From a virus, in the IMG/VR virus record IMGVR_UViG_3300035666_000044, positions 1-44,672 of that record: DNA of 44,672 bases; one strand, written 5' to 3'. Made by a program: the position numbers and the translations under genes. Numbering within the stretch: the first letter of the stretch is position 1; each line of letters starts with the position of its first letter. Below are positions 3,046-35,073 of the stretch, piece after piece. The notes under the pieces are model-generated. The model did no database searches, was not told where the DNA came from, and saw only the letters and a list, made by a program, of their open reading frames with translations.

Positions 3046-3773
3046 CAATTAAAAATATAAAATATATAGCCACATCAGCCCTGTACCGCTTGGGGAAAAA
3101 CCCCGTTGGTCGTGAGCTGAATTGGATGGTGCAAGTAGCAATCGACTACTTGAGCGAGAAGGCTCCCCTAGACGGGAACGTGTCTTTGAGAACAATCTAC
3201 GGAAAGATTGACACTGGAGCAAGGGTGTTTACGATGCCCGGCGACTGCATGAGGATTACCAAGGTTGGACTCAAGTCTGGCCGTCGCATTTGGACTCTGA
3301 CTCCGGACACGTCGTTGACATATCCAGAGGAGTTCTTTCAATGCGAAAGCGACAAGACCGACCCTGTAATTGCAGACGGCCTTTTCCCATACGGATACTT
3401 TGGTTTCTTTTACAACCAGACACAGTTTGGTTTGGGTGGTGGACGGAATCAGAACTATTACCGAATAGACGGCAACAATATAATTTTCGATCACAACATA
3501 CCCGACGGACAGTTGGTAATCGAGTACTTCTCAAACGGATCAGATGTTAACGAGAATAGCCTCATCGACACGGCATACGCCGAGCCGTTCCGTTTGTACC
3601 TCATGGCGGAGTATTGTCTCCATAAGGGGACGGCACTAGACCGCTCAAAGTTCAAGGAATTACAGATGCAATACGAGGCAGCCCAGTGGAGTGCCAACAT
3701 TTTGGTTAAGGCCCCACGACTGAGTGAGATGATTGACGCACTTGCACAAAGTTCAGAGTTTAATCTAGGATAA
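3042..3773 (+). CDS. Tail ring/adaptor-like structural protein 3
   Basis: A 243-residue protein overlapping its upstream neighbour by ATGA and its downstream neighbour by TAATG. The N-terminal helices (about 1-40) lead into a beta domain with the segment VFTMPGDCMRITKVGLKSG. A Gly/Asn/aromatic-rich middle and a C-terminal helical region (about 180-235) follow. The MPxDCxRI-type segment and helical C-terminus are familiar from adaptor proteins upstream of nozzle genes in Bacteroidota podoviruses. It is probably part of the tail tube assembly. Confidence 0.6.
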   Translation: MTIKNIKYIATSALYRLGKNPVGRELNWMVQVAIDYLSEKAPLDGNVSLRTIYGKIDTGARVFTMPGDCMRITKVGLKSGRRIWTLTPDTSLTYPEEFFQCESDKTDPVIADGLFPYGYFGFFYNQTQFGLGGGRNQNYYRIDGNNIIFDHNIPDGQLVIEYFSNGSDVNENSLIDTAYAEPFRLYLMAEYCLHKGTALDRSKFKELQMQYEAAQWSANILVKAPRLSEMIDALAQSSEFNLG

Positions 3774-6700
3774 TGGATTTCAACGAGATAATAACATTTG
3801 AGGGTGGTATAAACACCGACGACACGCCTCAGGGTATGCCCAAGGGCGACTATCGTGACTTTTCATACTGTCGTCTTGGTTATAATTCTGGTAACGCTTT
3901 TGCGGTGGAGACTTCGGCTGGAACGATTGAGATAAACAACCCAGACATTATCGAAGAAGACAAGGTGCTTGGTGCTACGCAGTGGTTGAAGGAAAATGCT
4001 ATCGTTTATTTCGTTTACAAATACACACCACCCCCAGTACCTCCGTTCCCTCCACCTCCCGTGCCTCACCAGATTTGGGTTTATTATATCGCAAATCAGA
4101 CCCATGAGCTTGTGGTTGAAGACATAGTGCTAAACTTCAGTCCCGACTGGCCAATCTTCCACGCCAACGTGGTAGATGATATCCTTAAGTGGACCGACGG
4201 ACGCTGGAATGATCAAATGTATGAAGACGACGGAACTCGTCTCTTCAATCCTCCTTATCAGATTAATTTACGCAAGGCCCTTGACGGCTTTTATACAATA
4301 GTTGACCTTCAGACCATAGATGCGATTAAGTGGCCAATGGAGCCGCCTATCGTTAGTTATTTCACGGACACTACTCGTAACGACAACAAGCTGCGTGGGA
4401 AACTATTCAAGTTCATTATTCAGCCGATATACGAGAATGGAGAGATTGGTGTTTGGTCGATGTATTCTAACCTGGCCTTACCTGACCAGTCAGAACTCGT
4501 TAGTGGAACCAACTGGGTATTTCTAAACAACGACAACGTCATAAGGATTCAGTTTGATACAGGACCCAAGGTGATCAGAGGTTTTAACCTAGCTGTTCAG
4601 CAATTCGATAGAGATAGCTTTGGAACGATACCTCCATTTGGTGTATTCCTTCAGCTTAACAAGGACCAAGACTCTATAAACGACAACACCTTTTACACCG
4701 TAAACTTCTACGGAGGCGTTGCCACTAGTGCTGCTACGGACGTATTTAAGAACTACGACAGACTTCCGATAACTTCAGATTGTCAAGAATACCTTCCAAC
4801 TAATCAGTTGGCCTATTCTAATTTCAGAGAAGGATATGATAAGCCTACTGAGGCCCCTTTTATTTTAGATGTAGAGATGGGCTATAACGTCAAGGAGATT
4901 CTTTGGAACTCTCTTGAATTTGGTAGATTGTATAATATTGGAATAACCGATTCGTCCCCACCATCAGGGCTGCCGGCTAATAGTTTTCTCTTTACATACG
5001 AAGGAAATGCGTATGCGGATGCAAATGTAAACTTTATTTTTCAAGCTGGGGACATCTTGCAATTTGTTACATGGGCAAATACGGGATCTCCTGAATATCA
5101 AAATAGACGACTTTTCTATAGTGTTTCTCAAGAAGATATAGAAACAGCCCTCGCGCTTCCTACTCCTTTTCAACAAAACGCATATATAATGCAGTTGATA
5201 GGCGACTCATTCATAGAGCAATGGGAAGCCACTGGTTTTTTCGCTCTCCCTGGAACTGTTTCTGTGTATACACCACCGGGATCCCCAGGGTATGTGGGAA
5301 TGAGGTATTCAGCGCAAAGAATACAAGGTTTTAATGGGGCTATCAGGGCGATGGGTTGGCAAAATATATCCCCAGCATCTCCAAAAAACATAATTGGTGG
5401 AGACTTTACTTATGGTTCTGGCCTTGCTCTTAATCGAATATGCCGAGTTTACGCCGCTGGAGGTGCTGACGGCGTTATCGATGCTAGTTTTTATGTGGGA
5501 TCTGGATTTAACGACACAGTAAATGTAATAGAGGTCAATCCAGCCGACAACTTCATAATTGTCGGCGGCAAGTTTACAGAGTCTGATGGCACTCCCAGAA
5601 ATAAGATAGCTAGACTTTTCCCAGATGGTGGTACAGACCTAAACTTTAATATCGGAAGCGGTTTTAACGGGGACGTGTATGCCATAAAGATACAGCCCGA
5701 CGGGAAGATTTTAGTGGGTGGTAACTTTACCGAATTTGATGGTCAGTCCGCAAAATTGATTGCTCGATTAAACACTGACGGAACCCTAGACAACAGCTTT
5801 ACATCACCCGTATTAGCTGTAACACCTCTTTCTAGTTTTGTTTTTGCGATAGAGATACAGAGTACTGGAAAGATATTGATAGGTGGTATTTTCTTAAATA
5901 TACCATCTGCTGTATCCAATGCCATGGCTAGGTTAAATACTGATGGATCTTATGACTCTAGTTATTTAGCGGATCCTAGTGGAGCTGTTTTAGCGATTCA
6001 TCTTGAGTCCCCGTTTGACGTAAGTCCAGACGATGTTTGGATAGGTGGGTCTTTTAATGATTGCAATGGGGTTACTAGGGGCAGGATTGCCAAACTAGAT
6101 CCGAACGGTAATTTGGACTTGACCTTTGATCCAGGTGTTGGCTTTGATGCGAATGTAAAATCATTAGAGCTTGGGCCAGCAGGCGCTATTGTTGCGACGG
6201 GAAACTTTACTACATACAAAGGGGTGCCGCGCGATAAATTGGTTTCGTTAAATGTCAACACGGCTGATTTTGTTGAGGATTTTGGGGCCTTTGACACGGC
6301 GCCTCTGTATATAAAAAACAACATTTCAACAGTTGGTGCATTTAATACACTTTTTGTTATGGGTGATTTCACCTATGACACAACCACTGCTAGAAATGGT
6401 ATAATTATAGATTACACATCGCCATTATCATACAAGGATTATATTGGTTTCTATTCATCGCCAATTCCTCCCCTAGAGACAAGTTTTAAAGACTTGACTT
6501 ACGACAAGATAACAGGCGCAACACCAAGTTTAAAGGTGGGGGCTACTCACGAGTTCGGCATTGTTTACGGGGACAGGGCATACAGAGACAGCACGGTTTA
6601 CACTATAGATTCCATGAATCTATTTGTTCCATGGTTTTACGACATACCCGAAAGATCTAGTTTTATTGATCCTCAAAACCCGTTTGCTGTAACTCCACAG

Positions 6701-9037
6701 ATTACAATAAATCACATCCCGCCAGTTTGGGCGACCAAATATTGGATAGTGGCAAAACCCGCTACTGAGATATTGAGTTTCGGTCAGTATATAACAAACT
6801 CAAATCAAGGAGATAGTTCTTACGAAATATCTGTACGCCTCGACTCTACAAATAGCAGATACGAAATATACTTAGACAACTATTACGAAACCTTCAATAA
6901 GGGCGCTAATATCAGGCACGAGATTAAGGTGGGTGACAAGTTGAGGTTCAAGAGGTCAAACTGGTATTACCTAGACTACCTGCCTTACATTGAGTTAGAT
7001 ATTGTAGATGTAACAGTAGACGGTCTTAATAGAACTATTGTTTACACGAATTTATTTGATCAGAATATAATCTCTCTTGGTGACGACTTTGCTGCATCAA
7101 CTTTTAAGCTGTTCGGCCAGGAGCTTGAGATATACACCCCAAGACCATCTGTAGATGACACAGGGAATATATTCGTCTCTACATGGAAAGATGTAACCGA
7201 GGCGATTCAGGTAAAGAATCCTCATACTGAAGACAGGTCTCACGGGTCTCCCGTTCAGTATTACCTTCAGTGGAGTCCTGATTTTTTCAGCGGAAGCTAT
7301 TTTTATATTAGCGGAGACCAAAGCCAATTGTCAGGAACGTCTTGGCCAAACTCAACCATCCATTATGCGGACGGAACAGTTTTCCAAGAAGCAACAAGTG
7401 TAAACGGCGCATCTTACGACAGCCTAGAAAATATCACGAGAATAGAACTAGCAACCGTTAGTCCGGACCCGACGATTTCTTACATAACACTCAACGGTCA
7501 AGACCAGGTGGTTAGCGCCCTAACGAGTACTACGCCTGCTTATTATCCAATCGATTACGGAGACGTTTACTTAAGACAAAGAAACAACCGCTCAGGGGTT
7601 GCTGGAGATAGGGCTATTTTGTATTGGTACATGGAGGACTTCAACTACTCTGACTACTTCCCGAGCAACATACATAATGACGGTAGACTTAGAATTGAGG
7701 ATCAAAACGCCAAGATGACTCACCGCAAGGCGTCTTCTATTCACTCCGAATCTTTTGTGCTTGGAACGCAGATAAACGGACTTTCTTCGTTTGCTCTCGA
7801 CAACCAAAATATCGAGGACATGAATCCGTTTTATGGAGAGATTGTTCGAACATATATGTCGGGTCGTGAGGGTAAGACGTTAAAATGTCTCCAACCAAAG
7901 AGAGAGAACTCTATTTACATTCAGTTCTACCCCAATGAGGTAGGCTCGGACTCAACGGTTCGTGTGTCTAACAAGACGTTTGCTTCATGGTTTGACTATA
8001 AAAGTCTTTTCGGGTGTTCTAATGCTGGAGCTGCAGCCGTTCTTCCAAACGGAGCGGTGATGTATTTTGACAATAACTCTGGTGTGTTTATCTACTCAGG
8101 AGGAAACGGTCAAATAGTAGTGAGCGAGATAGATCCCGACACCGGAAAGGACTACAAGTTCAGAACAAAGGCCAAAGCTCTTGCTAAGGCTTATAACGAA
8201 AGCGCGAATCCTATGGTTAGGACTTACGTCAACGAGACCGTTGGTGAGGTAGGCTTTGCGTTCACTTTTGATAACGAGGAGACCTACGAACACGTTGTGT
8301 TTGACTACGTGAACATGAGATGGCGTTCGACCTACGACTACAACTTCCGTCAGTTCTGCAACCTAGGACAAGCACTAGTTGGGTGGGGCAAGAACAATCA
8401 GTTATATGTACACAACCAAGACGGCGTGTGGACATTCCACGGCGACTCGTTCATTCAAAAGGTTACGTTCGTGTCAAACGAGCAGCCATTAAGACTCAAG
8501 CGATATCAGGACATTGTGTTAGTTTCGGACGACTTGTTCGCAATCGAGGCATCTTCTGAACCTAACAAGAGCTATCCACTCGGCATGAAAACCTTGATGT
8601 CCGAGAATCTTATCGGCACGTTCGAGGGATACGGAAGGACGAACTACAGAAAGAATCTGTATGACCCACGATTCTTTATAGAAGCCAACGTGAGCGAAAC
8701 AAACACGAGTACGTGGATACTAAACGGCAACCAGACATCGCTTGTAGGGGAGACCATTACTATTATTCAGGAAGACAAGAATATATATACAGGGGTGATT
8801 ACAAACCCCGTTTACAGCTCAGGACCTAACACCACAGCCATCGAGTTAGTCGGTTTACAGCCCGACACGATAGGTGTTGAGGGTACTTGGTACTTGAGTG
8901 AGAAGGTTTTATTAAACGGAGAAGATGTAAGGGCGAACGCCTTGACTCACACGCTGAGTTACGACCCCGCAGCTCCAGGAGCGTCGGGTGAAGGTTCTGT
9001 TCTTTTCTCTGTTGGAATTAAGGGTGTTTTATCTTAA
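3773..9037 (+). CDS. Giant tail nozzle (muzzle)-like protein with inserted beta-propeller
   Basis: A 1754-residue protein, the largest in the window. The N-terminus (FEGGINTDDTPQGMPKGDY) and the later segment IRGFNLAVQQFDRDSFG are typical of the large nozzle/stabilisation proteins that close the tail of crAss-like phages. A Pro-rich linker sits at about residues 84-100. Residues about 530-885 hold seven imperfect repeats of roughly 50 residues with the pattern GFN..V..I...P.GKILVGGNFT....G....IARLN.DG, the delta-60 type, which would form a seven-bladed propeller. The C-terminal third returns to nozzle-like beta sequence. The gene starts by TAATG overlap, and its last codons contain the promoter for the next block. 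Confidence 0.7.
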   Translation: MDFNEIITFEGGINTDDTPQGMPKGDYRDFSYCRLGYNSGNAFAVETSAGTIEINNPDIIEEDKVLGATQWLKENAIVYFVYKYTPPPVPPFPPPPVPHQIWVYYIANQTHELVVEDIVLNFSPDWPIFHANVVDDILKWTDGRWNDQMYEDDGTRLFNPPYQINLRKALDGFYTIVDLQTIDAIKWPMEPPIVSYFTDTTRNDNKLRGKLFKFIIQPIYENGEIGVWSMYSNLALPDQSELVSGTNWVFLNNDNVIRIQFDTGPKVIRGFNLAVQQFDRDSFGTIPPFGVFLQLNKDQDSINDNTFYTVNFYGGVATSAATDVFKNYDRLPITSDCQEYLPTNQLAYSNFREGYDKPTEAPFILDVEMGYNVKEILWNSLEFGRLYNIGITDSSPPSGLPANSFLFTYEGNAYADANVNFIFQAGDILQFVTWANTGSPEYQNRRLFYSVSQEDIETALALPTPFQQNAYIMQLIGDSFIEQWEATGFFALPGTVSVYTPPGSPGYVGMRYSAQRIQGFNGAIRAMGWQNISPASPKNIIGGDFTYGSGLALNRICRVYAAGGADGVIDASFYVGSGFNDTVNVIEVNPADNFIIVGGKFTESDGTPRNKIARLFPDGGTDLNFNIGSGFNGDVYAIKIQPDGKILVGGNFTEFDGQSAKLIARLNTDGTLDNSFTSPVLAVTPLSSFVFAIEIQSTGKILIGGIFLNIPSAVSNAMARLNTDGSYDSSYLADPSGAVLAIHLESPFDVSPDDVWIGGSFNDCNGVTRGRIAKLDPNGNLDLTFDPGVGFDANVKSLELGPAGAIVATGNFTTYKGVPRDKLVSLNVNTADFVEDFGAFDTAPLYIKNNISTVGAFNTLFVMGDFTYDTTTARNGIIIDYTSPLSYKDYIGFYSSPIPPLETSFKDLTYDKITGATPSLKVGATHEFGIVYGDRAYRDSTVYTIDSMNLFVPWFYDIPERSSFIDPQNPFAVTPQITINHIPPVWATKYWIVAKPATEILSFGQYITNSNQGDSSYEISVRLDSTNSRYEIYLDNYYETFNKGANIRHEIKVGDKLRFKRSNWYYLDYLPYIELDIVDVTVDGLNRTIVYTNLFDQNIISLGDDFAASTFKLFGQELEIYTPRPSVDDTGNIFVSTWKDVTEAIQVKNPHTEDRSHGSPVQYYLQWSPDFFSGSYFYISGDQSQLSGTSWPNSTIHYADGTVFQEATSVNGASYDSLENITRIELATVSPDPTISYITLNGQDQVVSALTSTTPAYYPIDYGDVYLRQRNNRSGVAGDRAILYWYMEDFNYSDYFPSNIHNDGRLRIEDQNAKMTHRKASSIHSESFVLGTQINGLSSFALDNQNIEDMNPFYGEIVRTYMSGREGKTLKCLQPKRENSIYIQFYPNEVGSDSTVRVSNKTFASWFDYKSLFGCSNAGAAAVLPNGAVMYFDNNSGVFIYSGGNGQIVVSEIDPDTGKDYKFRTKAKALAKAYNESANPMVRTYVNETVGEVGFAFTFDNEETYEHVVFDYVNMRWRSTYDYNFRQFCNLGQALVGWGKNNQLYVHNQDGVWTFHGDSFIQKVTFVSNEQPLRLKRYQDIVLVSDDLFAIEASSEPNKSYPLGMKTLMSENLIGTFEGYGRTNYRKNLYDPRFFIEANVSETNTSTWILNGNQTSLVGETITIIQEDKNIYTGVITNPVYSSGPNTTAIELVGLQPDTIGVEGTWYLSEKVLLNGEDVRANALTHTLSYDPAAPGASGEGSVLFSVGIKGVLS

Positions 9038-24677: not shown

Positions 24678-25931
24678 ATGGCACAAGGATACTCATCATA
24701 CAACATAATTAGTAGCGAGATTTCGTTTGCAAATACTCCTAACATAGATGCCTTCGGAAGACTAAGGGTAAGCGAGCCATTCACCTTGTTTGACTCAAGT
24801 CATAGATTTGCTGATAATGGTCTGTGGTCTACAGCTACCGCAACAGGTGGGGCCGCTACATTTAATTCTGCTCAAGGACTAGTTGATTTAGATGTAACCG
24901 CAGCATCAGGATCTGAGGTTCTTAGAGAAACTACAAAAGTGTTTTCGTATCAGCCTGGCAAGAGCTTACTTGTGCTTTCCACATTTGTGATGAGTGCAGC
25001 TAAGACCAACCTCAGACAAAGAGTTGGTTACTATGGTGCACAAAACGGTTATTATTTAGAACTTAACAATACCACGGTAAGTTTTGTAGAGAGAAGTTTT
25101 GTTACGGGGTCAGTTGTAAACACTCCGGTGGCCCAAGCAAGTTGGAATGTTGACCCGATGGATGGTTCAGGACCTAGTGGAATCACGCTTGACCTAACAA
25201 AGGCCCAGATCTTGTTCATGGATCTAGAATGGTTAGGGGTAGGAACAGTTAGGATAGGCTTTGTTATAAATGGGAACTTCTACGTTTGTCATAAATTCCA
25301 TCACGCCAACTTGATTACCTCTACCTACATCACGACAGCATCATTGCCGTTGAGATACGAGGTAACTAACACAGGCGCTACAAGTGGTGCTAGTACCTTA
25401 AAACAGATATGCTCTACCGTACTGTCTGAAGGAGGATATCAACTTAACGGATTACAACAAGCAATCGGGCTTCCCGTAACCACTCCAAAGAACTTAGCAG
25501 TAGCAGGTACATTTTACCCTATAGTAAGTATACGTCTTAAAGCATCCCCTGATCGATTAGATGGCATAGTAATATGTACTGCTATTTCTGTAATAGCAAC
25601 CAGCACGGGATCTTATAATTGGCAGGTAATAGCAACTGGAACTACGACGGGCGGTACTTGGGTAAGTGCAGGAGCAAACTCAGCTGTAGAATACAATATA
25701 ACAGGCACTAGCTTTTCTACAGGTAGTGGAAGAATACTTGCTAGTGGATTTTTTAGTGTGTCAAACCAAGGGTCAACTCAAGTTGATATCCTTAAAGAGG
25801 CGCTCTTTAAAACACAGCTTGAAAGAAATGGATTAACCTCAACCCCATTTGAACTTACTATTGTAGTCGCTACTGATAATGCAGGCGGTGACGTTCTTGC
25901 GTCAATGGACTGGGAAGAAATAAGCAGATAA
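24678..25931 (+). CDS. Tail appendage / receptor-binding-associated protein
   Basis: A 417-residue protein with the N-terminal signature NIDAFGRLRVSEPFTLFD, which recurs in structural proteins of marine and freshwater tailed phages next to small beta proteins like the one upstream. The rest is beta-rich, with a lectin-like sandwich suggested by RVGYYGAQNGYYLELNN and FVINGNFYVCHKFHHAN. No catalytic residues are evident. It likely sits at the distal tail and contributes to surface contact. Confidence 0.65.
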   Translation: MAQGYSSYNIISSEISFANTPNIDAFGRLRVSEPFTLFDSSHRFADNGLWSTATATGGAATFNSAQGLVDLDVTAASGSEVLRETTKVFSYQPGKSLLVLSTFVMSAAKTNLRQRVGYYGAQNGYYLELNNTTVSFVERSFVTGSVVNTPVAQASWNVDPMDGSGPSGITLDLTKAQILFMDLEWLGVGTVRIGFVINGNFYVCHKFHHANLITSTYITTASLPLRYEVTNTGATSGASTLKQICSTVLSEGGYQLNGLQQAIGLPVTTPKNLAVAGTFYPIVSIRLKASPDRLDGIVICTAISVIATSTGSYNWQVIATGTTTGGTWVSAGANSAVEYNITGTSFSTGSGRILASGFFSVSNQGSTQVDILKEALFKTQLERNGLTSTPFELTIVVATDNAGGDVLASMDWEEISR

Positions 25932-31982: not shown

Positions 31983-33527
31983 TTAGAATAACTTGGATTG
32001 GGTTGAGTTACTAGTAGAACCTTTATCTTCTTTACCACGATATTTGTACTGCTCATACTCGTCTATTTTGCTCCACTCATTTATGCGAGCTTCTGAAATC
32101 TTGCAGTAGTCGGCATCTAACTCTATTCCTGTGTATTCAAGGTTTTCCAAAGTACAAGCGATACCTGTTGTTCCGCTTCCGTTGAAAGGGTCAAGCACTT
32201 TACCATTGGGCGGTGTTATCATCCTAACGAGATACTGCATCAGTTTTACGGGTTTGACCGTTGGGTGAAAGTTTTTTGAAGGTGCTTTTTCACTACCATA
32301 TTTTCCGCTCGCGCTATTTACATCATCAAGGTAGTTTCCTATACCGCCACCTCCACCAATCGTTTGTTTTTCATCAAACTCCTCTAATCCAAAATTTCTT
32401 TCGCTTTTTGATGCTTTTGCTACATAGAAAAAACGTGAAGCACCTCCGCTATCACCAAGACCACCCAAGTTGTCGGCTTTTACATTCAAATTGTATTTAC
32501 CATACTTTCCGTTTTTACCTAATGCACCCATTGACTTTTCTCCACTTCCTCCTGTGCTTTTGCTTTTCCCACTCTGCTCGTCCATTATTTTAATCGGGCA
32601 ATCATCGTGGCAAGTCCAGTCTTCAATCGTTTCTTCGCCATTTTCATCTCCAAGGCCACCTGCATTAGCACCATTTTCTATTTTCTTAAATCCAAATCCT
32701 TGTTCATTCATACTGACGCTTCCTCCTGAACCGCCCTTTATCGCTTTTATTTTCTTCATTCCTTTGCACTCACATTCGGGGTGATGCGTTAAAATCAAAT
32801 TGGCGGGGAAGCGACCTTGTATATTAGGTTTAGTAGCTATATTTTCAGCAAAATCACCATATTTTTTTGTCGGATTTTCATTATAGTTAGAAGTAGGGTT
32901 TTTACTACTTTTTGCATCAATTTCTTCGTAATCATTTTTTGACATTTTAACTCTACACCCATCAATGTTAATTGCACCCGTTCCCCATTTGAGTACATTT
33001 TCGGCAATCGAAAGACCTTTTTCAAGCGGCTTTCTTGCAAGTACAATAGGTTCGTTGCTTGGTTTTAGAGCACTACCCCAACCATCCCATTGTTTCGCTT
33101 GGTCGGTAGGCACATCTTGTTTATCTATCGCCTTGCTGATATTGTGCGACTTTGGAAACCCACTTCCATAAAGCCATTGAATACAATCGCGTATTTCAAA
33201 ACCACCTATTCGCATTGCCATAACACCCCAATCGTATGTCCTGGTTCCAAAAAAAGCAACAACGTGTCCTCCGTGCTTTAACACCCTAAAAACCTCCTTC
33301 CAAAACAAAGGCTGTGGCACAAAGGCGTCCCACTCTTTACCCATAAAACCACTTCCTTTCACCTGCAAATACCCGCTTGATACCCAGGCCTGAAGCACTT
33401 CTTCTGCATTAGGTTCTTTGCCCAATCCATACGGGGGATCAGTAACCACTGAATCAAAATAGTTATCGGGAAACTTTTTAAGTTCTTCGTAACTATTTCC
33501 ATTTATTATTTTAAATGTGTTTTTCAT
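31983..33527 (-). CDS. DNA methyltransferase, N6-adenine/N4-cytosine (beta class order)
   Basis: A 514-residue enzyme. I start it at ATG 33527, since the upstream in-frame ATG at 33545 would place the promoter -7 box inside the coding region. Catalytic motif IV TDPPYGLG (about 29-36) precedes the AdoMet-binding motif DPFNGSGTTG (about 446-455), the beta-class order. Family marks include HPTVKPVKLMQYLVRM, GASRFFYVAKASKSERNF and the Cys clusters CECKG and CHDDCPI. A Gly-rich insert spans about residues 255-345. It likely modifies phage DNA to evade restriction. The gene looks more AT-rich than its neighbours, hinting at separate acquisition. Confidence 0.85.
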   Translation of the reverse strand: MKNTFKIINGNSYEELKKFPDNYFDSVVTDPPYGLGKEPNAEEVLQAWVSSGYLQVKGSGFMGKEWDAFVPQPLFWKEVFRVLKHGGHVVAFFGTRTYDWGVMAMRIGGFEIRDCIQWLYGSGFPKSHNISKAIDKQDVPTDQAKQWDGWGSALKPSNEPIVLARKPLEKGLSIAENVLKWGTGAINIDGCRVKMSKNDYEEIDAKSSKNPTSNYNENPTKKYGDFAENIATKPNIQGRFPANLILTHHPECECKGMKKIKAIKGGSGGSVSMNEQGFGFKKIENGANAGGLGDENGEETIEDWTCHDDCPIKIMDEQSGKSKSTGGSGEKSMGALGKNGKYGKYNLNVKADNLGGLGDSGGASRFFYVAKASKSERNFGLEEFDEKQTIGGGGGIGNYLDDVNSASGKYGSEKAPSKNFHPTVKPVKLMQYLVRMITPPNGKVLDPFNGSGTTGIACTLENLEYTGIELDADYCKISEARINEWSKIDEYEQYKYRGKEDKGSTSNSTQSKLF

Positions 33528-33531
33528 TTTA

Positions 33532-33570: not shown

Positions 33571-33603
33571 TTTGACTTTTTTATTTTCGTAGTCATACTT
33601 TTG
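33571..33603 (+). promoter_or_regulatory. Promoter of the structured leader RNA / winged-helix gene
   Basis: TTTG (33571-33574), 21 bp, TACTTTTG (33596-33603) fits the Bacteroidota consensus. Transcription would start near 33609, about 97 nt before the ATG at 33706. Confidence 0.65.
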
Positions 33604-33608
33604 TTGCG

Positions 33609-33705
33609 TTCTCACATTGCAGTGTCTGGTACGCAGTGCAATGTGGGAGGTAAGAATAATCTTACTCAGAATTGCCCTCGGACGTACCAGACGAGGGCTT
33701 TTTTT
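33609..33705 (+). ncRNA. Structured leader or small RNA with loop-loop complementarity and terminator
   Basis: Three hairpins follow the promoter: CACATTGCA (33613-33621) with TGCAATGTG (33637-33645), GTAAGA-ATAA-TCTTAC (about 33650-33665), and GCCCTCG (33674-33680) with CGAGGGC (33692-33698) followed by seven T (33699-33705). The last is a textbook Rho-independent terminator placed directly against the start codon at 33706. The loop of the first hairpin (GTCTGGTACG, 33624-33633) is perfectly complementary over 10 nt to the terminator loop and its edge (CGTACCAGAC, 33683-33692). It could be an attenuator of the downstream gene or a free RNA of about 97 nt. Confidence 0.65.
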
Positions 33706-34425
33706 ATGCCCAAACATACAGAAATATCATCTGTAATCTCAAGCCACACATTGTTTTCGAATGTCGAGAACATAAAGTGGCTTGAGAGGTTTGTCGAATT
33801 CAAGCGGGCATTCCCGAACTCCGTGATATATAAATACTCTGCCTACCGGGTTGAAAAACTTGGGAGACTCAATATGTCACGCAACACAATCAAGAACACG
33901 ATAGATAAGTTTATCGAGCTTGGTTGGGTTACAAAAAATAAATCTCACCTCATTTTAATATCTAAAAATAAATTGTCTGCTCTCTATGGGGCAAAAACCC
34001 ATAGGAAAATCAAATTAGACACAACCCTATCAATTAAGATCCAGCTACAAGCAAAGGTGTTTAACAGAGCCATCAATCGCTCTCGCTATGGTAAGTGCAT
34101 GCAGGAAGTACAAGATAAAAGCATCAGGCGTAAATACGCTAAATCACTCAGTGGCACTCCGCAAGAACTTTCTAGCAAAAAGATTGGAAAAGTATTTAAC
34201 GTATCACAAACTCAAGCATTAAGGCTAGTAAGAAACCTGGAGAACAACGGGTGGATCACTGTACAACGGCAAAAACTCAAACATTTGGGTAAGTGTTCAG
34301 CCAAGCAGTGGCAGTTCAGAAAGGTATGGTGGAAAAGAAAGGAGAATGTAAACAACTGCTTTTGGCATTTGGGGCATTTCTTTCATCTTCCATCTAATTC
34401 TTATCTTAGTAATACCATTTCCTAA
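33706..34425 (+). CDS. Double winged-helix DNA-binding protein
   Basis: A 239-residue basic protein. The frame is open from 33544, but promoter and terminator lie in that stretch, so I start at ATG 33706. It appears to have two winged-helix units: about residues 40-90 (NMSRNTIKNTIDKFIELGWV) and about 150-200 (IGKVFNVSQTQALRLVRNLE, then NNGWITVQRQKL). A basic linker and a Trp/Lys/His-rich C-terminus complete it. It is the only rightward gene within the leftward operon and is divergent from the methyltransferase, so it may be a regulator of that cassette. A plasmid-type replication or mobilisation role cannot be excluded. Confidence 0.6.
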   Translation: MPKHTEISSVISSHTLFSNVENIKWLERFVEFKRAFPNSVIYKYSAYRVEKLGRLNMSRNTIKNTIDKFIELGWVTKNKSHLILISKNKLSALYGAKTHRKIKLDTTLSIKIQLQAKVFNRAINRSRYGKCMQEVQDKSIRRKYAKSLSGTPQELSSKKIGKVFNVSQTQALRLVRNLENNGWITVQRQKLKHLGKCSAKQWQFRKVWWKRKENVNNCFWHLGHFFHLPSNSYLSNTIS

Positions 34426-34476
34426 AGATGCTAGAATTCCTAACCATTTTTTGACCAATCAGAAAAAAACTGACCA

Positions 34477-35073
34477 TCAAATAAGGCTCATCTTACTGAG
34501 GTAATCACACTCCTCATTCATTTCTCTTGGAATCCACTCTATTTCAATGTTTGAGAATGCGTTAAACATTTTCTTGCATTCAAGTCCATACGGAAGATAC
34601 AAGCCGTTTGCCCCGAATCCCCACACCCGGTTCATCTGATTAACCACCAGGCTCGAATCCCCTCTAACAAGTATGTTGTGATCGGAGAACCTGTTGTCTA
34701 ATAGCCAAGATAAAGCATCGCATAGCGCTATATACTCAGCCGTGTTAGCAGAGTTTTGTCTACCGGCTTGCTCTCTCCCTGATGAATGGTGTATCCACTT
34801 TCCGTTTTCCTCGACATAAAACCCCCATCCCATTTGTCCGTATGGATTCACAGGCTCGCAACAACCGTCGAAATACACGATTAAATCGCGATTAAAGTGC
34901 TTGAAGGTCTCTGACTCTATCTCAACCCAATAACGCTCGTAATAGGCGGATACGGCAGGATATTGACCCCGCTCCCACGTTTCCTTGATCCACCAGGCTG
35001 GGACGTCTATCATTCTTTTGCCTTTATGCACCCCGAATGGGAAACTGTCGCTATGTTTTGCTTTTGTGTTCAT
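34477..35073 (-). CDS. RNase HI with N-terminal DUF3820-like domain
   Basis: A 198-residue protein. Residues about 9-35 (FPFGVHKGKRMIDVPAWWI) match the FG.(Y/H)KG..I.DVP pattern of DUF3820-like small domains. Residues about 62-198 form an RNase HI fold with the acidic tetrad D69 (VYFDGCCEP), E113 (NTAEYIAL), D139 (RGDSSLVV) and D190 (ECDYLS). It would cleave RNA in RNA:DNA hybrids, such as primers during phage replication. It overlaps the NinB-like gene by ATGA. Confidence 0.8.
   Translation of the reverse strand: MNTKAKHSDSFPFGVHKGKRMIDVPAWWIKETWERGQYPAVSAYYERYWVEIESETFKHFNRDLIVYFDGCCEPVNPYGQMGWGFYVEENGKWIHHSSGREQAGRQNSANTAEYIALCDALSWLLDNRFSDHNILVRGDSSLVVNQMNRVWGFGANGLYLPYGLECKKMFNAFSNIEIEWIPREMNEECDYLSKMSLI

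Follow-up and report, generated by a model that had tools for sequence, protein, structure and literature searches.

A putative phage small RNA in which the first hairpin loop is predicted to pair with the terminator loop

In the 44,672-nt virus record IMGVR_UViG_3300035666_000044, an IMG/VR phage that was analyzed over its full length and is called the window below, we have identified what appears to be a new phage RNA family, uncatalogued in Rfam. Comparison among 28 distinct full-length versions supports its promoter, its three stems, a helix between two of its loops, its terminator, and its independence from neighboring genes. We consider it probable that the element is a free, terminator-ended phage small RNA (sRNA) of ∼97 nt, its fold locked by a loop–loop pseudoknot of 8-10 bp, that accumulates and acts in trans, and that in the window would serve as a read-through leader as well. 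The RNA belongs to a known broad class, that of phage small RNAs having a loop–loop pseudoknot; what is unusual is that one of the two partners is the loop of a terminator.

Architecture of the RNA gene

The original prediction had described this unit as a promoter, hairpins, and a terminator abutting an ATG, and rechecking the sequence bears out the coordinates of that arrangement. The promoter (33571-33603, + strand) is of the Bacteroidota type (TTTGAC ... TAnnTTTG), with TTTGAC at ∼33571-33576 and TACTTTTG, the TAnnTTTG box, at 33596-33603; box and spacing are kept in relatives, and transcription would start at ∼33607-33611. It is divergent from the promoter (TTG...TATCTTTG) of an N6/N4 DNA methyltransferase gene (31983-33529, - strand), the intergenic region being common to both; the methyltransferase start is approximate, having been set from the promoter position, and the longest ORF extends to 33545. 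In several relatives the promoter spacer (33577-33595 in the window) holds short inverted repeats that differ in letters (GGAG..CTCC, GGTG..CACC, TACA..TGTA), which are possibly operator variants.

Hairpin 1 (33610-33648, + strand) had been predicted with a 9-bp stem at 33613-33645; the hairpin exists, with a stem that is in fact 12 bp long (33610-33621 with 33637-33648) and a 15-nt loop (33622-33636). Its G·G mismatch (33622/33636) is conserved, and an invariant GTG...C[AG]G frame surrounds the variable 9-10 nt of the loop, mismatch and frame being unchanged even where the remaining stem has been rewritten. Hairpin 2 (33650-33665, + strand) has 6 bp in the window, its letters varying among versions. 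The terminator hairpin (33674-33698, + strand) has a 7-bp stem (33674-33680 with 33692-33698) and an 11-nt loop (33681-33691), and is followed by seven T (33699-33705, + strand), which complete an intrinsic terminator and mark the expected RNA 3' end. This T run is kept in 28 of 28 versions, broken by a single C in three of them (L042, L044, and L059). The small hairpin, the terminator hairpin, and the seven T are thus present as predicted, the last T touching the ATG at 33706 of a winged-helix protein gene (239 aa, 33706-34425, + strand). The RNA strand has a folding energy of -43.4 kcal/mol (z = -5.3).

Within loop 1, the ten nucleotides GTCTGGTACG (33624-33633, + strand) are confirmed as the exact reverse complement of CGTACCAGAC (33683-33692, + strand) in the terminator, and loop-pair comparison marks these as the two halves of the loop–loop helix. 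The final paired base, C33692, is also part of the 3' arm of the terminator stem, and the helix thereby overlaps the terminator's invariant closing G-C pair.

Evidence for selection on the loop–loop helix

The original prediction held a loop match of 10 nt to be very unlikely by chance, a judgment that we can uphold because a descriptor made up of a terminator and an upstream hairpin with a loop complementary over at least 7 nt finds only this RNA in phage loci: it matches 94 of 394 terminator-like sites there (redundant copies included), all 94 being this RNA, as against 1 of 120 in bacterial control loci. Outside the RNA family, none of the terminator-like sites of the phage loci has complementary hairpin and terminator loops. 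The match moreover persists in 28 versions despite letter changes, so that the folded shape is, on this comparative evidence, under selection, which would keep the match.

Among 16 distinct loop pairs, the longest Watson–Crick runs sum to 142, compared to 72.8 (sd 7.2) when partners are re-dealt (20,000 permutations, maximum 107). Read in a fixed register of ten positions, 13 helix sequences have 3 unpaired cells out of 130; all four Watson–Crick pair types occur at helix positions 6 and 7, and three types at two more. Loop lengths mostly co-vary (14/10, 15/11), a longer loop 1 usually coming with a longer terminator loop, and loop alleles vary among close relatives. Traced on a tree of the neighboring exonuclease gene, changes at helix positions 3 to 7 are equally numerous on either side (2, 3, 6, 16, and 14), though these counts are possibly inflated, as locus and tree may have recombined.

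We looked for covariation in the homologous leaders and found it in all three stems and in the loop–loop helix, whose compensatory changes across homologs sustain the pseudoknot that had been proposed. In direct pair counts, nine clean rows in which hairpin 1 is joined to the terminator have 99.6% of their cells paired and double changes in 20 cells, compared to 5.0 after shuffling; all 28 rows have 95.7% of cells paired and 119 cells changed on both sides, compared to 33.7, in an automatic alignment that misplaces some loop columns where lengths are unequal. Both-side changes are found at 8 of the 14 pairs of hairpin 1 (99% of cells paired), at 4 of the 6 pairs of hairpin 2, and at 3 pairs of the terminator stem, which has 100% of its cells paired in the 28 versions. 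Together, these comparisons strongly support a loop–loop pseudoknot contact of 8-10 bp.

The 10-nt stretch of loop 1 was also compared with the whole window, allowing one mismatch, and no site was found besides the two paired halves; with no second site in the window, a trans target of loop 1 inside its own phage was dropped from consideration.

Family search and distribution

Relatives were gathered by the stem pattern of hairpin 1, by a search from the neighboring Cas4-like exonuclease gene, and by covariance models, which yielded the 28 versions. Four near-identical relatives were found with the winged-helix protein as query; their leaders have 83% identity to that of the window and another loop pair, TGTTTGACGG with CCGTCAAACA. 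In an initial test of 20 phage records, 15 carried the RNA in a single copy per genome and 5 lacked it, as did 19 further records or fragments. Since several related phages are without it, including two records of 67 and 70 kb, the RNA is accessory, not essential. All relatives come from one phage group, sampled in environmental metagenomes, which limits the age that can be given to the element; the 28 versions, though distinct, are related to one another.

Neither the window nor six related loci contain an Rfam 15 family at gathering threshold, in keeping with the earlier statement that the leader resembles no known riboswitch or attenuator; at loose thresholds, the best sub-threshold match is Spot 42, at 16 bits compared to the 80 needed. 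A DNA similarity search of the phage collection gave no match. A pattern scan of cellular genomes gave 70 stretches, and among the 53 checked with the model there was no true copy. Searching 297 Bacteroidota genomes with the model gave no convincing copy and two matches only (L185 and L186), which we rejected as bacterial copies, since they lack the hairpin 1 loop and one of them is the terminator behind an EF-Tu gene. Wider viral patterns (the promoter; a diverged stem) gave only chance matches beyond the known group, and we found no description of the RNA in the literature.

Exchange of neighboring modules

Three kinds of module, unrelated to each other, lie downstream of the RNA. The first is the winged-helix gene, whose ATG stands at the end of the T run; a start codon touching the terminator is peculiar to this subset, which comprises only the window and the four near-identical relatives. 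The suggestion that the element is an attenuator of this gene accordingly fails as a general role. The second module spans ∼330 nt and contains an ORF-like stretch of 81-85 codons that begins 4-6 nt after the model end. Its coding status is doubtful, because its substitutions, judged by eye, look mostly non-synonymous and its end is frame-shifted. An example is L041:8141-8460, with equivalents in L011, L029, L042, L044, L058, L059, and L082; the module has long invariant blocks, its ORF-like stretch reading MYYGLKSVSPVPSKQS..., and searches with L041, L011, and L082 found no match to it in Rfam. The third and commonest module, present in 18 of the 28 distinct versions, is a very conserved and probably noncoding sequence of ∼170 nt, usually followed by a convergent gene. 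As an observation of its own, these ∼170 nt just downstream of the RNA (L064:5730-5900, - strand, with equivalents in 17 other versions) appear better conserved than the RNA. Their indels break the frame, their tail is rich in pyrimidines, and a fold is predicted for their + strand (consensus -39 kcal/mol, ending GGCTTTTTC); they may represent another noncoding RNA or a site in the DNA.

Most relatives therefore have no same-strand gene, or a doubtful one, after the terminator, and their next coding gene is convergent. The second option of the original prediction, a free RNA of ∼97 nt, gains support from this layout, in which the RNA is usually alone on its strand.

Identical RNA cores are followed by different modules: L041 (second module) has the same core as L089 (third), and L058 (second) the same as L060 (third). 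Between the window and L029, both flanks have been exchanged while the RNA persists as an island at 88% identity. Because of these identical cores with different modules and these flanks exchanged around the island, the RNA is seen to stay constant at the core of a locus whose neighbors swap, and as a family it cannot be an attenuator of the winged-helix gene; the swapping takes place on both sides of the RNA, with the methyltransferase and winged-helix genes as exchangeable neighbors. The methyltransferase, winged-helix, and RNase H-like genes of the window (31983-33529 and 33706-35073) are absent from L029, a near relative whose matching backbone is mostly 91-98% identical.

In the window, there is no room for a promoter between the terminator and the winged-helix ATG, and none was seen, so that the gene, barring an overlooked promoter, is probably expressed only by read-through. 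The winged-helix protein had no solved relative in a structure search, and its structure model (mean pLDDT 39) is unusable. Translation of the leader was considered and dropped: in the window the RNA shares an open frame with the winged-helix gene, but elsewhere the RNA length varies in non-multiples of three. A promoter-like TTG...TATGTTTG on the - strand (window 33742-33711) points into the terminator; antisense control from this site was rejected, as L005 has not kept it and chance alone should give several matches of this kind per window.

Function of the RNA

The element combines its own promoter, a compact structured body, a terminator, and conservation independent of its neighbors, as an intrinsically terminated small RNA gene does, and the compensatory changes between its two loops are those of a loop–loop (kissing) pseudoknot RNA. 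In the reading that we favor, a noncoding RNA of ∼97 nt would be transcribed from a strong promoter of its own, stop at an intrinsic terminator of its own, and fold into three hairpins; pairing of the hairpin 1 loop with the terminator loop over 8-10 bp would lock the 5' hairpin and the 3' end together into one compact pseudoknotted particle. This discrete RNA would then accumulate as a stable molecule and act in trans on a protein or RNA that belongs to the host or to a competing phage, forming the constant core of an accessory locus with swapped neighbors. In the window phage, the winged-helix gene would have landed directly behind the terminator and so made the RNA its leader too, and the loop–loop helix may tune read-through into that gene. 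Such an effect on termination is plausible because the loop–loop duplex is nominally stronger than the terminator hairpin (means -15.0 and -12.3 kcal/mol) and overlaps its closing pair. Because the variable loops are occupied in pairing with one another and match no further site in the window, they are unlikely to be the targeting part; a putative binding site is better sought in the conserved frame of hairpin 1. Being accessory, with swapped neighbors and a diversity of loop alleles, the locus suggests a role in phage–host or phage–phage conflict. Against a free RNA stand, in one subset, the contact between ATG and T run and, in another, the start of the ORF-like stretch only 4-6 nt past that run, both of which could reflect regulated read-through, as well as the absence of the cassette from some related phage records; in the third subset, the conserved noncoding stretch after the RNA might be co-transcribed.

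We think it unlikely, if well worth weighing, that the RNA is instead a cis-acting attenuator, in which the emerging terminator loop would pair with the hairpin 1 loop, taking the first base of the terminator 3' arm and hindering the terminator from closing, so that transcription would run into the downstream module; a factor holding hairpin 1 would restore termination. The energies above and the overlap with the invariant closing pair suit this, as do the need of the winged-helix gene for read-through and the position of the ORF-like stretch so close behind the T run, but most distinct versions have no clearly coding same-strand sequence downstream, the terminator stem is perfectly paired in all 28, and one RNA core serves unrelated modules, where an attenuator family would have the same kind of gene throughout. 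We are somewhat more doubtful of a protein-independent antitermination switch, exchanged among phages with allele-specific loops, in which the upstream hairpin loop would capture the emerging terminator loop and serve any module behind it.

It is improbable that the loops pair between molecules and build dimers, chains, or rings in the manner of phi29 prohead RNA, with loop variants setting which copies assemble: although the loops are fully complementary, change in step, and differ among close relatives, the hairpins are ∼25 nt apart on one molecule, where intramolecular pairing should win at low concentration, and the RNA is accessory and has no prohead-type context. Least credible is an element acting at the level of DNA (an origin of replication, or a site of recombination or packaging) with a folding strand, which would fit a recombination-prone place between divergent modules and beside conserved noncoding DNA, but not the conserved promoter and terminator, the G-U pairs tolerated in the loop–loop helix (L025, L083, and L040) and in the stems, as expected for RNA, or the lack of the element in some long relatives.

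What sets this RNA apart is a tertiary contact, supported by covariation, between an upstream hairpin loop and the terminator's own loop through a helix of 8-10 bp, in a family new to Rfam. Should the contact act on termination, it would offer a simple means of controlling terminators by loop capture; should it do no more than lock the RNA, it would be a phage way of protecting and shaping a stable small RNA in Bacteroidota-type hosts. Members of the Bacteroidota are not known to possess Hfq or ProQ.

Comparison with known systems

In plasmid ColIb-P9, a pseudoknot opens the ribosome site of the replication initiator, and an antisense RNA blocks that pseudoknot. Attenuators of the pT181 type have a terminator hairpin just upstream of the start codon and need a counter-transcript. 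These attenuators and leader pseudoknots such as that of ColIb-P9 repZ (PMC10724649), both belonging to plasmid replication genes, are functionally nearest to the phage RNA. As in ColIb-P9 repZ, a hairpin loop of the phage RNA pairs with a distant complementary stretch near a gene start and the kissing contact is central, whereas its partner is an intrinsic terminator loop and there is usually no gene downstream. With pT181 it has in common a terminator hairpin shortly before a start codon, and a loop-based choice between folds is conceivable, but both complementary loops lie within one RNA instead of involving a counter-transcript. We found no conserved antisense promoter opposite the leader such as countertranscript control of either kind would use.

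In the type III toxin–antitoxin system ToxIN, ToxI consists of 36-nt repeats cut by ToxN (PMC5772629). The likeness is one of layout only, a promoter, a pseudoknotted RNA, and a terminator being followed by a gene that read-through expresses at a lower level (PMC5772629). The phage RNA, in contrast, is a single unit without tandem repeats, and has behind it a winged-helix gene or, mostly, no clear gene, and no endoribonuclease gene of the ToxN/CptN/TenpN type.

Among phage RNAs, the prohead RNA (pRNA) of phi29-like phages has a pair of loops that are complementary to each other and change from phage to phage. Our RNA is of similar size and likewise has two complementary loops that vary among phages, but its second loop is that of a terminator and it is accessory in its phages; the prohead RNA models of Rfam have no gathering-score match in the window. 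RNAs C and D of T4 are free, stable phage sRNAs whose genes lie in an accessory region, and the phage RNA resembles them, by description only, as a small stable RNA gene in such a region.

Host and other genes of the window

Few Shine–Dalgarno sites, A-rich upstream regions, and TAnnTTTG boxes are typical of Bacteroidota and their phages. In the window, SD-like sites precede 3 of 42 genes, upstream regions are A-rich, and TAnnTTTG boxes occur at sensible places, so that a Bacteroidota host is likely. In contrast to these promoters and start sites, a virion structural protein (phrog_1645; window 24678-25931) has ∼67-72% identity to cyanophage proteins and to those of Puniceispirillum phage HMO-2011. 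The window also encodes, at 3773-9037, a protein of 1754 residues with several DUF5122 beta-propeller repeats.
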